From an uncultured Kushneria sp. (GTDB lineage: Bacteria > Pseudomonadota > Gammaproteobacteria > Pseudomonadales > Halomonadaceae), in the NCBI RefSeq assembly GCF_947497025.1, contig NZ_CANMFC010000004.1, forward strand, positions 248,001-312,000: a stretch of DNA of 64,000 nt. The letters run 5' to 3'. Of this stretch, positions 16,353-26,003 are shown in pieces. Positions within the stretch are counted from its first letter, which is position 1. Every line of letters starts with the position of its first letter. The notes beneath the pieces were generated by a model that saw nothing but the letters and a program-made list of their open reading frames with translations, was not told the DNA's origin and did not search any database. Position numbers and translations under genes: made by a program.

Positions 16353-17126
16353 TCACTGGAAGTAGGTGGAAAACGAGGTCAGGATCTCGTCGTTGAGTGA
16401 CGCGCCCAGCCTGCCAGCGCAATAGATCAGCGCACTCTGCTGATCAGGTCGATCGGCGATCCATTTCAACCCACCTAACTCATTATCGCGTCGAAAGATC
16501 GACCAGCTGGCCGGCTCGAAGGGATCCGGGCGATAGCCGATCTCAAGACAGTCGTCCGGGCGGAGCTCGCTACAGACCACGACATCGACTGCATTGGGGC
16601 CATAGCCCAGGATCCGCAACAGCGGAAGGCCATGACCGCATGCAGTCATCCCGATCGTGTCGAGCACCTGACCATGCCATCGACTCCCCTTGGCAAACCG
16701 TTGCGCGATCGATGCCACGGCCTCGGCATCCGATCGAAACGGGCCATTGGCGCGGGCCACGACGGCATAGGCGCCATCCACGACATCCAGATACCAGCCC
16801 TCGTGTTGAGGAAAGAATATCGGCCAGCCAGCATCGGCCAAGGATGTCGCCAGACTTGCCGCCGTGTCCGAGTCCCACTCGGGTCGTGACAACTCGGCAC
16901 GAAAGCGCCGAATCAGAATGTCTCGAGCATCCTGGTCGTCAGCGGTACCGCCGAGGTTGAGTTCCTCGCACAGTTTGTCGATGTTGACCACATCCAGACT
17001 CTCGCCCCCGATATCCTGAATCGCATCGGGTATGTCCCATCCGGACGTGCGCTGTAACAGCCTCAGCGCGGCCAGAATGACATCGACGTCTTCCTGGGCC
17101 AGCTGATAGGAGAGAGTATCGCTCAT
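16353..17126 (-). CDS. Hypothetical ICE cargo protein
   Basis: A 257-residue soluble protein that I do not recognise. It is acidic, with an N-terminal helical region (LAQEDVDVILAALRLLQRT) and a central domain rich in aromatic and hydrophobic residues (GWPIFFPQHEGWYLDVVDGAYAVVARANGPF). A good Shine-Dalgarno AAGGAG precedes ATG 17126, but it can pair with GCTCCTT upstream in the leader. It has its own leader and terminator and so is probably monocistronic. Confidence 0.75.
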   Translation of the reverse strand: MSDTLSYQLAQEDVDVILAALRLLQRTSGWDIPDAIQDIGGESLDVVNIDKLCEELNLGGTADDQDARDILIRRFRAELSRPEWDSDTAASLATSLADAGWPIFFPQHEGWYLDVVDGAYAVVARANGPFRSDAEAVASIAQRFAKGSRWHGQVLDTIGMTACGHGLPLLRILGYGPNAVDVVVCSELRPDDCLEIGYRPDPFEPASWSIFRRDNELGGLKWIADRPDQQSALIYCAGRLGASLNDEILTSFSTYFQ

Positions 17127-17201
17127 GGAATTGCTCCTTCGTGTATCGATTGGAAAGGAGCCACCCCCTCGGGGCGTGGCCCCGAATGGGTGAGTAGTCT
17201 C
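17127..17201 (-). promoter_or_regulatory. Structured mRNA leader 1 (two-hairpin family)
   Basis: On the minus strand a GC-rich hairpin (CACCC...CGGGGC-CAC-GCCCCG...GGGTG) is followed by a second helix, GCTCCTT with AAGGAGC. The second helix contains the whole Shine-Dalgarno sequence of the 16353-17126 gene. Four neighbouring genes have the same layout. Confidence 0.65.
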
Positions 17202-17210
17202 GGTAGAGAC

Positions 17211-17453
17211 TTAGATCAGCGTGACCCGCGTCATCGGACGAATGGCGAAAGCGTCAAGCGCCTTCTCGGGTGTGTCACCGGAGAAGGGCCGACCCAACGT
17301 ATCGAATACGATCCAGGGACCGTGGCCATGATCGCGCTCTATGTCGTATGCCAGGCGCAGATACCCGATCGGGCACGCTGGCCAGGCAGAAGCGCCCTCG
17401 TAGACACTGTGTGAATCACCGGCCGAACCGGGTTGCAGGCAGTAGGGTTGCAT
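17211..17453 (-). CDS. Small hypothetical ICE protein
   Basis: I start at ATG 17453 (MQPYCLQPGS), where AGGAG lies 7-9 bases upstream; the track ORF begins 10 codons earlier inside the leader. The product is 80 residues and soluble, with a central YLRLAYDIERDHGHGPWIVFDTLG segment. No family is recognised. It has its own leader (17454-17512) and upstream motif. Confidence 0.65.
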   Translation of the reverse strand: MQPYCLQPGSAGDSHSVYEGASAWPACPIGYLRLAYDIERDHGHGPWIVFDTLGRPFSGDTPEKALDAFAIRPMTRVTLI

Positions 17454-17512
17454 GTGGGTGGCTCCTCGAGAGAATGGAGCCATCCCACCGGGAAATGGCC
17501 CCGGGTGGGAGA
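17454..17512 (-). promoter_or_regulatory. Structured mRNA leader 2 (two-hairpin family)
   Basis: Hairpin I is TCCCACCCGGG...CCCGGTGGGA. Hairpin II pairs TGGCTCC with GGAGCCA across a 10-nt loop and encloses the Shine-Dalgarno GGAG of the 17453 start. Confidence 0.65.
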
Positions 17513-17523
17513 AGAAACGTTAA
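17513..17523 (-). promoter_or_regulatory. Conserved ICE upstream motif, copy 3 (TTAACGTTTCT)
   Basis: The motif lies 60 nt before start codon 17453; leader hairpin I begins immediately after it. Confidence 0.55.
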
Positions 17524-17528
17524 GTCAG

Positions 17529-18113
17529 TCAGGCAGCGTTACAGTCGTGACTGGCCTGTGGTGGATCGATCACAACGCGATCCCAGCGATAACGCCACAT
17601 TCGCCCAGTCGCGTCACGGCCTATGAAGAATGTCGAAGTGTGAGCACGTACAAAGTCGATCGTGATAACAACATCACCCTCACGACTGCTTCCCAGATGA
17701 TAGCGAAGCCGGTCACCCGGTCGAGATTGACTAGCCAGGCGGCGACGACGAGCTTTCGCCTTCCTCAACGTCCGACAAGCCTCTCGCCAGGCGACGGCCT
17801 CAGGACACTGAACATCCGATTGCTTGAGTAATCGCTCTGGACAGTCCTTCACATAAGGCCCCATCGACTCATCCATATCCTTGTACCCCCAGGCGCGATC
17901 ACCTGAGCAGCCCGAGGCCGGCGTCGGCCCCTGCAGCAAGAACACAGCGATGAATCGATAGTCGTCTACTCGATTGTGAAATACGACGTAGAGCACATTG
18001 CCTCGTCGCGAATGATCAAGGATCTCGCATCGACTCGGTTCATGCTGATGCTCCAGCAGCCAGTCGATCAGTTCATCACGAGTCTCGGTTTCAAAGGGGA
18101 AGGTGTAACCCAT
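17529..18113 (-). CDS. Hypothetical ICE protein
   Basis: A 194-residue soluble protein of unknown family. The N-terminal part (MGYTFPFETETRDELIDWLLEHQ, then GNVLYVVFHNR) resembles small DNA- or RNA-associated phage and plasmid proteins of no known function; a very basic patch (RKAKARRRRLASQ) follows near residue 120. A C-terminal YHLGSSREGDVVITIDFVRA segment looks like a small beta-barrel. The gene has its own structured leader that can pair with its Shine-Dalgarno GGAGA. Confidence 0.7.
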   Translation of the reverse strand: MGYTFPFETETRDELIDWLLEHQHEPSRCEILDHSRRGNVLYVVFHNRVDDYRFIAVFLLQGPTPASGCSGDRAWGYKDMDESMGPYVKDCPERLLKQSDVQCPEAVAWREACRTLRKAKARRRRLASQSRPGDRLRYHLGSSREGDVVITIDFVRAHTSTFFIGRDATGRMWRYRWDRVVIDPPQASHDCNAA

Positions 18114-18172
18114 GGGGAAATCTCCAATAAAACGGGAGAGCCCCCCATATCGGGAGAACTCTCCCGTAGGGA
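18114..18172 (-). promoter_or_regulatory. Structured mRNA leader 3 with alternative pairings
   Basis: On the minus strand ACGGGAGAG can pair with a distal CTCTCCCGT (9 bp) or CGGGAG can pair locally with CTCCCG. When the local hairpin forms, the distal CTCTCC is free to pair with the Shine-Dalgarno GGAGA. This mutually exclusive layout is what an attenuator or riboswitch would show. A degenerate upstream motif (GGAAAC then AAAAA on the plus strand) lies 58 nt from the start. Confidence 0.55.
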
Positions 18173-18179
18173 AACAAAA

Positions 18180-18201
18180 ACAGCCTCCCGAAGGAGGCTG
18201 T
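18180..18201 (-). terminator. Rho-independent terminator after the small membrane-protein trio
   Basis: A perfect 9-bp stem (ACAGCCTCC/GGAGGCTGT) with a CGAA loop is followed on the minus strand by TTTTTGTTT. It closes the 18227-18724 unit. Confidence 0.88.
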
Positions 18202-18226
18202 CATGACGTGTAAGAATCTGTCTGAA

Positions 18227-18352
18227 TCAGCGTTTTCGTTTTCGTCGCGCTTCCAACTTGCGATGCACGTAGTAGGCATAACCGCCGGCAATCGTCATCG
18301 CAACGGTCAGAACGACAAAAATCGTGCCAAGCAGCAGAGTCGCAGAATCCAT
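18227..18352 (-). CDS. Small membrane protein, 41 residues (not in ORF track)
   Basis: ATG 18352 opens MDSATLLLGTIFVVLTVAMTIAGGYAYYVHRKLEARRKRKR, that is, one hydrophobic helix followed by a basic tail of the positive-inside type. It is the third of three consecutive tiny membrane-protein ORFs that share one leader and one terminator. No family is recognised. Candidates are a toxin-like or membrane-regulating micropeptide, but this is speculation. Confidence 0.6.
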   Translation of the reverse strand: MDSATLLLGTIFVVLTVAMTIAGGYAYYVHRKLEARRKRKR

Positions 18353-18368
18353 CAGGCATCAGCTCGCA

Positions 18369-18497
18369 TCAGTGATGCCGATGCTTCTGGCGTTTTTGCA
18401 AATCCTTGAGTACCAGCCAGGCGTAGCCCAGACCACCGATCGAGAGAATCAGGAACGGAGCCATTACGGCTGCAAACCGCAGGAATTCATCGTTCAT
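18369..18497 (-). CDS. Small membrane protein, 42 residues (not in ORF track)
   Basis: ATG 18497 overlaps the stop of the 76-residue gene as ATGA, a strong sign of coupled translation. The product has one membrane helix (AAVMAPFLILSIGGLGYAWLV) and a basic, histidine-rich end (KDLQKRQKHRHH). The start codon overlap and membrane-protein composition support a real gene, though it is too short for homology by eye. Confidence 0.62.
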   Translation of the reverse strand: MNDEFLRFAAVMAPFLILSIGGLGYAWLVLKDLQKRQKHRHH

Positions 18498-18724
18498 TGG
18501 CCATCAGCCTCCTTGGCTGCGTCAATGGTTTGATTGATTCTAACCCTCAATACGACAGCGACCAATACCACGACAGTGGCAATACCCCCACCCAACACCG
18601 CATAGGCGAGTTGAATCTGGTGGGCAATGACACCGCCAAGTATGCAGGCCGCTACGATGGTTGAGGCGATGCGCTCGATTGCCTCAGCGATGGCAAGGCC
18701 TAGCGCGTGGTTTTTCTGCTTCAT
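18494..18724 (-). CDS. Small membrane protein, 76 residues
   Basis: The product has two hydrophobic helices (STIVAACILGGVIAHQIQLAYAV and GGGIATVVVLVAVVLRV) with short charged ends. A Shine-Dalgarno GGAG lies 9 bases before ATG 18724, and can pair within the leader (GTATCTC/GAGATAC). It heads the trio of tiny membrane proteins. Function unknown. Confidence 0.65.
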   Translation of the reverse strand: MKQKNHALGLAIAEAIERIASTIVAACILGGVIAHQIQLAYAVLGGGIATVVVLVAVVLRVRINQTIDAAKEADGQ

Positions 18725-18791
18725 AGGCGTATCTCCAGAATATCGCGCCGAGATACACCGCCCGATCGGGGAGTGAATCCCCGGGCGGGTG
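18725..18791 (-). promoter_or_regulatory. Structured mRNA leader 4 (two-hairpin family)
   Basis: Hairpin I is CACC-CGCCCG-GGGGA...TCCCC-GAT-CGGGCG-GTG. Hairpin II pairs GTATCTC with GAGATAC over the Shine-Dalgarno of the 18724 start. A degenerate copy of the upstream motif (GGAATGAAAA on the plus strand, 18791-18800) lies 67 nt from the start. Confidence 0.65.
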
Positions 18792-18800
18792 GAATGAAAA

Positions 18801-18827
18801 CCGTCACTGACGGGAAGCGAGCTTCCC
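18801..18827 (-). terminator. Probable terminator after the DUF3577 gene
   Basis: Two adjacent hairpins (CGGGAAGC/GCTTCCCG, then CCGTC/GACGG) lie just past the stop at 18844 on the minus strand, followed by TTTTC. Confidence 0.65.
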
Positions 18828-18843
18828 GGTAAGTGAGGTGGAA

Positions 18844-19380
18844 TCAGATGACCGCTTCGGCGGCGCCGACCGATCCGCTGACAACGGGTTGGGCAGGCGC
18901 ATCGGTTCCCTGCGACGCTGTTTCGCCAGCCTGGGCACTGGTGGGGGTCGACGCGGTTTCGTCACGCCGTGGCGCTTCATAAACCTTGTCGCCGTCCACT
19001 TTGGCCCAATTGACGAACAGTAGACGCGCCTTGAGGCTCACGGCTGTTTCACCAGCGCGATCGCCCTTGGTCCGCGTGAACAGATCGGGATAGAGATCGC
19101 CGAGTTTGAAACCGATCAGGATCTTGGGCTCGTTAGTCCCTTTCTCCTTGCGATCGGCCACGGTTGCGGCGAATTTTTTGACCAGTTTCTCCGCTTCGGC
19201 CCCACTGACGCGGCAGTCGAAACGGCGATACTCGACATCATTGGCAGGGCCATTCAACGCGGATATGTCGCAAGCCCAGAAGGCATCGCCACGCTTGGGC
19301 GTGATCTTGCGGATCCGATTGACGTAGCCAACGCCGGTGATATGGAGATCGAAGAACTGGTTATCGGTCGAGTTAGACAT
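18844..19380 (-). CDS. DUF3577 / STY4534-family ICE replication-associated protein
   Basis: ATG 19380 (MSNSTDNQFFDLHITGVGYVNRI) is chosen because AAGGAG lies 8 bases upstream and the family begins here; the track ORF extends into the leader. The 178-residue product has FDLHITGVGYVNRIRKITPKRGDAFWACDISALNG, characteristic of DUF3577, and a low-complexity Ser/Ala/Thr tail. The family is annotated in ICEs as STY4534-type replication protein; it resembles an OB-fold single-strand-binding protein. Its biochemical role is not established. Confidence 0.85.
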   Translation of the reverse strand: MSNSTDNQFFDLHITGVGYVNRIRKITPKRGDAFWACDISALNGPANDVEYRRFDCRVSGAEAEKLVKKFAATVADRKEKGTNEPKILIGFKLGDLYPDLFTRTKGDRAGETAVSLKARLLFVNWAKVDGDKVYEAPRRDETASTPTSAQAGETASQGTDAPAQPVVSGSVGAAEAVI

Positions 19381-19461
19381 GGTGTTGCTCCTTGGATCGA
19401 GGTACGGGAATCCAGAAGACACACCATCCCCATCGGGGAAAGTGTTCCCCCGGATGGGTGG
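19381..19461 (-). promoter_or_regulatory. Structured mRNA leader 5 (two-hairpin family)
   Basis: Hairpin I is CACC-CATCC-GGGGGAA-CACT-TTCCCC-GATG-GGGATG-GTG. The following sequence CTTCTGGAT can pair with ATCCAAG, covering most of the Shine-Dalgarno AAGGAG of the DUF3577 gene, and GGTGT can pair with ACACC just before the ATG. Confidence 0.62.
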
Positions 19462-20169
19462 TTCGGCGCGAGGCCGAGTATTCGGAAGTGGCATCCAGCT
19501 CAGATGAGCGCCGTCTCTCGGGATGCGTTAACGGCTTCGGGAATTGCCCGAAGGCAAAAGGCGTCACTGATGACCGTCAGTGACCAGCGGCTTACATCGA
19601 CAGGATTACGCCACTTCTACCCGGCGTCAACCCCAAATCTCGATCGTCAATCGCAAGCCGGGGCAGCGAATTCTCGCCGCCTCGCCTTGGGATTGAGGAC
19701 CAGCACTGCGCGTCCAGTCGGCTACCGATACCGGTTTGGGTAGCAAGTATGAATCAGCCATTATGCCGGCCATCGGCCATGCCCCTCGTAGTCATGGTGA
19801 CGATTGCCGCTGCATCCGGTCCCGAATCATGGCGATGGACCGATACGGTTGTGCGCGGATCCCCGCACAAAGGGAGCCCAGGGGTCAGGCGGTGGGCGCC
19901 GCCACGGTAAAGACAAGTTCAACCGGCCAGCGAGGCACCTGTGACGAGATGCCTGGCTGGCCGGTCGAAATGGGCTTGAAGAAATGGTCGACGACCGGTC
20001 GACCTGAAACATAGGGAACCTGGAACCCGCATACACGCCAATGTAGTGCAAGCGGAGCCTGCGAGGGGGTGCGCTCTTTCGCCAGGTGATAGCGCTTTGG
20101 GTTCGGACCCAAGGAGAGTCCAAAGGGACCAACTGATGACCGTCAGTTGGCAACGGGGTGCAAGAGCAA
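19462..20169. other. Gene-free, inverted-repeat-rich ICE region (possible oriT or origin)
   Basis: No ORF here has supportive composition or a ribosome binding site. The stretch contains at least five strong inverted repeats: 19563-19584 and 20129-20150 (identical core ACTGATGACCGTCAGT with different but complementary 3-bp flanks), 19923-19964 (14 of 15 bp stem), 19986-20004 (GGTCGAC/GTCGACC) and 20097-20112 (TTGGGT/ACCCAA). Such density is usual for transfer or single-strand replication origins. The assignment is inference. A weak relative of the upstream motif lies at 19518-19529. Confidence 0.5.
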
Positions 20170-25686: not shown

Positions 25687-25750
25687 CGCGCTCACGGTCC
25701 TTTCCTGTTCTCGTTGCAGATACTTGGTTGCCTCACCGATCCTGCGGAAA

Positions 25751-26003
25751 GTGTTGCCAGTGGCAACACCCTGGCCTGTCTCTACCTGGAGTGTTGCCAG
25801 TGGCAACACCCTGGCCTGTCTCTACCTGGAGTGTTGCCAGTGGCAACACCCGCCTGTCTCTACCTGGAGTGTTGCCAGTGGCAACACCCGCTTGTCTCTA
25901 CCTGGAGTGTTGCCAGTGGCAACACCCGCCTGTCTCTACCTGGAGTGTTGCCAGTGGCAACACCCTGGCCTGTCTCTACCTGGAGTGATGGCAGTGCCAT
26001 CAC
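25751..26003. repeat. Array of seven 19-bp palindromes, 38-40 bp apart
   Basis: Six perfect copies of GTGTTGCCAGTGGCAACAC start at 25751, 25791, 25831, 25869, 25907 and 25945. A seventh at 25985, GTGATGGCAGTGCCATCAC, differs at four positions but stays perfectly self-complementary. Spacers are 19 or 21 bp and nearly identical (CTGTCTCTACCTGGA). The array lies between PFL_4669 and DUF3158. It is a candidate partition or operator site. Confidence 0.97.

Follow-up and report, generated by a model that had tools for sequence, protein, structure and literature searches.

Translational attenuators of the erm type control expression by alternative pairing in the leader, which hides or frees the Shine-Dalgarno (SD) sequence of the gene. 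Their attenuation involves an inhibitory stem-loop and a stalling leader peptide (PMC5118997). Metastable leaders with mutually exclusive hairpins that form in order during transcription are described for the MS2 5' untranslated region, hok and aapA3 (PMC6733600). Conjugation operons of the pLS20 type contain internal terminators and an antitermination system (PMC8955417). The radC motif, included in a 2010 list of candidate RNAs, was rated 'Y' as an RNA and 'y' as cis-regulatory (PMC2864571). The leaders reported here lie in a 64-kb stretch (the window; C4:248001-312000) of the 3.53-Mb genome of an uncultured Kushneria sp., on the minus strand of an integrative and conjugative element (ICE) of the PAPI-1/pKLC102/ICEclc type (PFGI-1/PAPI-1 type). 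Five such leaders, A to E, end at the ATGs 19380, 18724, 18113, 17453 and 17126. Each can form a hairpin I followed by a helix II containing the SD sequence, or alternatively a hairpin III. We give a somewhat better than even chance to the reading, drawn from sequence comparison and model energies, that the leaders are bistable translational latches, OFF by default, with hairpin III as the ON state. As in the erm type, alternative pairing of segments would govern access to the SD sequence; the erm-type ribosome stalls on a leader peptide, whereas leader open reading frames (ORFs) are not enriched here. In MS2 a transient fold permits translation before the final fold is reached, as hairpin III might do; MS2, hok and aapA3 are single genes or toxin mRNAs, whereas here a compact design (~70 nucleotides, nt) stands before many unrelated genes. 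Like this locus, the pLS20-type operons belong to conjugative elements, contain regulatory hairpins repeatedly and have an RNA element at the operon start, but they rely on terminators, whereas the present leaders hide the SD sequence at start codons, carry a U-run in part only, and have a terminator role that is putative.

That the leaders are a real RNA family, with one design before many unrelated ICE genes, is well supported, and its structure suggests control at the SD sequence. Eighty loci from gamma-, beta- and alphaproteobacteria were picked by homology of the DUF3577 protein alone, and in essentially all of them the DUF3577-gene leader shows hairpin I and, after it, an SD helix. A covariance model, R1, was made from 11 DUF3577-type and pKLC102 leaders, leader A being a seed and leaders B to E being left out; it gave 143 matches in 40 loci, many of them preceding other genes. 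A second model, R2, was trained on 86 of these matches, leaders C and D excluded, and gave 269 matches (E<=0.05) in 59 related loci (921 kb), with 268 of the 269 on the sense strand. Among the pooled matches, 194 of 196 end on an ATG, which is built into the model. Not built in is the length of the closed ORFs, 98% of which reach at least 50 codons, whereas random ATGs from these loci give 47%. The ORFs behind the 196 pooled leaders fall into about 32 protein clusters, including DUF3577, a helicase, DUF932, DUF5983, a cytosine methyltransferase and many unknown proteins; no pilus gene in these annotated loci has such a leader. The leader starts from about 5 to several hundred nt past the preceding stop codon, and translational coupling to the upstream gene was rejected as a required feature on this ground.

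Covariation in helices I and II is strong. In 139 distinct leaders, 92.8% of alignment cells are paired and changes on both sides occur in 16 of the 19 pairs of helices I and II; compensatory cells number 204, whereas shuffles give 61.5 and slid controls 8-66. Because the alignment had been fitted to this structure, the counts are biased in its favour, a concern lessened by the slid controls and by the DUF3577 set chosen by homology. Automatic assignment of SD and anti-SD strands by complementarity failed because the 3' arm of hairpin I also resembles an anti-SD sequence, and the columns of the covariance model were used instead. The sequence-only reading of the window had claimed these five leaders as members of a cis-acting RNA family able to hide the SD sequence, and had proposed a covariance-model search and the presence of covariation as the means of judging it. 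All five leaders were confirmed where it had placed them and were recovered by the search together with others in the ICE and its relatives; the covariation was found, and strand and ICE specificity, start-codon anchoring and the many unrelated genes served speak for the same claim.

The leaders follow the ICE. With R2 at E<0.1, matches in the host genome are confined to it and nothing else in the 3.53 Mb rises above chance. A finer local search gave ten leaders in the ICE. Five are those of the window; the other five lie at C4:228.1-232.7 kb, and one of these directly precedes an ArdC-like antirestriction ORF (identified by eye). Matches occur in 13 of 101 Halomonadaceae genomes, 12 of which also contain DUF3577, in 32 of 369 sampled Gammaproteobacteria and in 16 of 399 Pseudomonadota genomes, often several clustered, and such leaders are present in elements such as pKLC102. 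The thirteenth Halomonadaceae genome (G070, locus L126, G070:C2:149000-161000) has about ten leaders in 12 kb and no DUF3577 match; use of the leader thus extends to a different kind of element.

A general alternative pairing, hairpin III, and the SD-like 5' arm of hairpin I are missing from the sequence-only reading; with them, a bistable translational switch whose hairpins exclude one another is the better description of the family. In the proposed model the leader would be a self-contained switch built from four segments. The 5' arm of hairpin I together with its loop (GGGGnn..CAC), here called segment 1, would imitate a ribosome-binding site, and segment 2 would be the 3' arm of hairpin I; segment 3 would be the anti-SD strand (GGUGnnnCUCC), and segment 4 would run from the SD sequence to the start codon (GGAGnnnCACC-AUG). 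Segment 1 (CGGGGnn..CAC) does resemble a ribosome-binding site (GGAGnn..CACC) and is complementary to the anti-SD strand. New here is that, on sequence grounds, segments 1 and 3 can form a hairpin III that would exclude hairpin I and helix II and free the SD sequence, by a complementarity specific to each leader. For 86 non-redundant leaders the 1:3 duplex has a mean energy of -12.8 kcal/mol with each leader's own segments, against -8.7 (standard deviation 0.26) after re-pairing between leaders (z=-15.8, 0 of 10,000). In an independent set of 49 leaders from other genomes, filtered for unlikeness to the first set, the values are -15.6 and -11.2 kcal/mol (z=-13.5, 0 of 10,000). The 1:3 pairing is absent from the covariance model. 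Of the segment 3 bases left unpaired by helix II, 61% per leader pair with segment 1 in hairpin III, against 23% in the permuted control (standard deviation 4%, maximum 35% in 300); the 1:3 pairing is thus more than a by-product of the resemblance of segment 1 to segment 4. Hairpin III is not provable from the window alone, and its proof comes from the leader family. A MAFFT alignment of 34 DUF3577 leaders had misaligned hairpin I, whose loop lengths vary, and RNAalifold paired segment 1 with the anti-SD strand; this pairing seemed an artefact, yet pointed to hairpin III.

Equilibrium folding of the growing chain was calculated for 62 leaders. Hairpin I forms after segment 2 and hairpin III once segment 3 is made (81%); hairpin III is present in 79% just before the SD sequence is made, and the complete leader folds as I+II, with hairpin III preferred in 15%. 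In chimeras joining hairpin I of one leader to the rest of another, hairpin III is present in 21%. The corresponding values for the independent set are 90% (segment 3 made), 80% (before the SD sequence) and 2% (complete), against 27%, 21% and 1% for chimeras, and the whole order I, III, I+II is followed in 65% and 78% of the leaders of the two sets against about 20% of chimeras. The OFF state has a median advantage of about 6 kcal/mol, which becomes 8 if the SD region has to stay single-stranded when ON. Direct-path barriers are about 14-21 kcal/mol, with about 18 for the change from I to III and 14 from III to I+II. By sequence and model energies the SD sequence is sequestered in one of two alternative folds, as in a translational riboswitch.

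In the proposed mechanism the more stable state would have segments 1:2 and 3:4 paired, with the SD sequence hidden and translation off; in the alternative state the 1:3 pair would open both helices and leave the SD sequence free. The states are estimated to differ by a few to about 10 kcal/mol, and large barriers separate them, so the RNA should be a latch set during its synthesis, and the model energies suggest setting by the formation of hairpin I rather than a freely equilibrating switch. A leader with an undisturbed hairpin I would end OFF, while opening or delaying hairpin I would let hairpin III form and give a long-lasting ON state. Some factor of the active ICE would open hairpin I in many leaders together; a helicase, the ribosome, RNA polymerase or some ICE protein are possible triggers. 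In cells, hairpin III is probably the ON state and the kinetics those of a latch, as far as the modelled energies indicate. Several points weigh against this account. The energies and barriers are nearest-neighbour estimates, and the barrier of about 18 kcal/mol means that hairpin III needs something that opens hairpin I; a simple timer, in which hairpin III forms unaided and then decays, was downgraded on account of this barrier. In leaders B and E hairpins III and I are of near-equal energy, in leader D hairpin III is weak, and a fixed-register test of the flanking pairs of hairpin III is weak (z=1.7) and is not relied on. The U-rich tails described below suggest that hairpin III does something else, or more, in some leaders.

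The main rival to the latch is transcription attenuation, with hairpin III and its U-rich tail as an intrinsic terminator or pause hairpin, hairpin I as the antiterminator and helix II as a back-up; read-through by modified transcription complexes would be conceivable. We regard it as rather unlikely for the family, although hairpin III could be a terminator in a subset of leaders that includes C, which scored as terminator-like. The best 8-nt window after hairpin III averages 4.33 U, against 3.73 (standard deviation 0.07) for shuffled loops, with at least 5 U in 45% (30% in shuffled loops) and at least 6 U in 22% of 101 leaders, and hairpin III rather than I is preferred just before the SD sequence is made. 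Over half of the leaders, including A, have no U-run, however, and U-richness tracks neither the strength of hairpin III nor operon position; part of the U excess could stem from avoidance of SD-like purines beside the anti-SD strand. The covarying SD helix is left unexplained by a pure attenuator, and terminators before each gene would make the operons strongly polar unless antitermination exists. Attenuation by a leader peptide is unsupported, since such ORFs occur in 7% of 28 leaders far from the upstream gene against 19% in shuffles.

Control in trans would require a plain SD-hiding leader whose hairpin I is recognized by an ICE protein or small RNA (CsrA-like, ProQ-like or new), hairpin III being minor. 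That one element has so many leaders of a single design suggests a factor common to them, as the sequence-only reading proposed, and such control would fit the latch if this factor triggered it; as a separate explanation it is improbable. Conserved unpaired bases are almost nil, namely the leading A and a G able to pair in hairpin III, and with low conservation outside the helices there is no conserved, mostly unpaired core such as the metabolite-binding aptamer of a translational riboswitch. CsrA control is unsupported, for the ANGGA core overlaps the SD sequence in only 30% of leaders and the SD sequence lies in a stem and not in a loop; neither CsrA nor ProQ is encoded in the ICE, the single gene of each being on other contigs. 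The match of segments 1 and 3 within, and not across, leaders disfavours a common antisense RNA, as well as hairpin III as a by-product. An RNA thermometer, or a static leader of low efficiency without regulation, is very unlikely: the SD sequence, and often the start codon, lies inside a helix as in thermometers, but these strong helices are rich in GC, and such a leader could do without hairpin I and without the 1:3 complementarity. Chance structure, or repeated DNA with no RNA function, has almost no credibility left and is refuted for the family as a whole; GC-rich leaders do fold easily and the single z-scores are moderate, but the one-strand matches, the anchoring at start codons, the covariation and the leader-specific 1:3 pairing stand against it.

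The leaders match no Rfam family. With Rfam 15 the window has no match that reaches the gathering score, and its part from 16 to 21.3 kb, searched at E up to 10, gave nothing of relevance; in 216 kb of related leader-rich loci it gave radC, psRNA2 and tRNA only, none of them on the leaders checked. The psRNA2 match (146 bits) is at L007:5474-5642 (+), just upstream of the DUF3577 gene in a Burkholderia glumae plasmid. No description of these leaders was found in the open-access literature, and the available parts of papers on PAPI-1 and ICEclc regulation (PMC8565334, PMC2892462) hold none; the sequence-only reading likewise knew of no description. It had also left room for a relation to known motifs upstream of ICE genes. 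The nearest, radC RNA (RF01754), lies in the leaders of the same ICE genes; at operon-first genes it immediately precedes the two-hairpin leader, and it ends before hairpin I in loci L003 and L005, but it is distinct: it is 149 nt long, has other hairpins and occurs at operon starts rather than before every gene. The leaders do not match the 149-position radC model, and the window has no radC match. The radC RNA occurs 2-4 times per ICE, upstream of operon-first leaders (L002-L005, L034, L058); a scan of seven Halomonadaceae loci gave none.

Directly upstream of leader A, about 120 nt (19480-19602) are near-identical to a stretch that precedes the first leader (L125:4642-4717, minus strand) in the second cluster of the ICE. 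The DNA beyond this element differs between the two clusters, and the element sits where radC sits in other ICEs. It ends, like radC, in a hairpin followed by GGAUGC, and contains CCGUUAACGC (radC: CguuagCGC). Rfam does not recognize it as radC; from its sequence it is possibly a diverged radC RNA of Halomonadaceae.

More speculatively, and with a rather low probability in our estimate, the ICE may hold an RNA regulon in which an aptamer-free latch of three hairpins stands before dozens of unrelated genes, perhaps together with a radC-type RNA. Were this so, the transcription or translation machinery would be modified by this radC-type RNA, located at the start of the operon; it could, for instance, be a processive antiterminator that takes RNA polymerase past terminator-like hairpins III. 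Only deliberate transcription of the full operon would then yield protein, and stray read-through would be silent. The silence of large ICEs in most cells and the joint switch-on of dozens of genes are studied mainly at promoters; a latch would put beside that level a post-transcriptional control whose switch is defined and easy to mutate. The leaders may also offer a way into the study of radC RNA, to which the literature searched assigns no function, and the more than 100 natural leaders that keep two competing folds are useful to test models of co-transcriptional RNA folding.

The features of the window are given in Table 1. R1 recovered leaders B, C and E in the window at the E values listed and leader D at E 0.33. 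Unconstrained folding gave the order claimed earlier, hairpin I and then the SD helix, in four of the five leaders (z -2.7 to -3.3 against dinucleotide shuffles). The exception is leader C (z -2.0), in which the alternative hairpin CGGGAG/CTCCCG, also pointed out by the sequence-only reading, is the preferred fold; hairpin III dominates even the full-length fold of this leader. In leader A hairpin III is the best fold of the prefix. The proposed helix II of leader A, CTTCTGGAT/ATCCAAG, is its inner part; the helix extends outward as AUGGUGU/ACACCAU to the start codon, and the SD sequence pairs with UCUUC, replaced by UCUCC in the close relatives L008 and L009.

Table 1. Leaders, their helices and the genes behind them in the window
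Feature	Position	Strand	Basis or remark
Conserved element directly upstream of leader A	19480..19602	-	alignment with L125
Leader A (STY4534/DUF3577 gene)	19378..19462	-	folds; R1 seed; R2 69.6 bits
Leader A hairpin I	19458-19445/19441-19429	-	
Leader A helix II with SD	19427-19409/19398-19379	-	
Leader A hairpin III (1:3)	19455-19435/19431-19410	-	20 base pairs
Gene of leader A: STY4534 family ICE replication protein (DUF3577)	18844..19380	-	PF12101 E 8.9e-51; NF040584 above cut-off
Leader B	18722..18796	-	R1 E 3.5e-4; R2 42 bits; folds
Leader B hairpin I	18788-18778/18772-18762	-	
Leader B helix II	18759-18750/18735-18726	-	
Leader B hairpin III	18787-18779/18753-18744 with 18775-18768/18763-18756	-	
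Gene of leader B: 76-aa small protein, probably membrane (judged by eye)	18494..18724	-	ORF
Leader C	18111..18174	-	R1 E 0.005; R2 E 1.6e-4; in neither training set; folds
Leader C hairpin I	18166-18161/18156-18151	-	
Leader C helix II	18149-18135/18125-18111	-	
Leader C hairpin III, then UUUUAUU	18166-18153/18146-18133	-	
Terminator-like stretch in leader C	18167-18132	-	
Gene of leader C: 194-aa protein	17529..18113	-	ORF
Leader D	17451..17514	-	R2 E 0.0012, outside training set; folds
Leader D hairpin I	17510-17499/17493-17483	-	
Leader D helix II	17482-17476/17465-17459	-	
Leader D hairpin III	17502-17495/17483-17476	-	8 base pairs, read from sequence; not favoured
Gene of leader D: 80-aa protein	17211..17453	-	ORF
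Leader E	17124..17197	-	R1 E 6.8e-5; R2 39.1 bits; folds
Leader E hairpin I	17190-17179/17175-17166	-	
Leader E helix II	17161-17154/17140-17133	-	
Leader E hairpin III	17183-17176/17164-17157	-	GGGGCCAC/GUGGCUCC
Gene of leader E: 257-aa protein	16353..17126	-	ORF

Recognized in the ICE by family profile matches are PilL2 (TIGR03748), a single-stranded-DNA-binding protein and the STY4534/DUF3577 protein, which in the window is 100% identical to a protein of Salinicola rhizosphaerae (L008). The protein behind leader B has no family above cut-off, and those behind leaders C, D and E have no Pfam or NCBIfam match; the 194-aa protein belongs to a cluster of 18 leader-bearing relatives from other loci, and the 257-aa protein has 7 leader-bearing relatives. 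The division of the row into five transcription units, as proposed earlier, was not borne out. Promoter-like sites are at chance level (2 found against 1.5 expected), a single classical terminator-like hairpin (18202-18179, minus strand), followed by TTTTTGTTT, lies within the gene row just before leader C, and there are leaderless ORFs between leaders B and C. This hairpin has a weak Rfam score as Phe_leader, through the terminator alone. The leaderless ORFs (18496-18230, minus strand) are two in number, very small, and apparently encode membrane peptides. Outside the leader region, a short tandem repeat is present at about 25740-26000, and ORFs on both of its strands read repeated peptides (WQHP/SGNT/VAT motifs).

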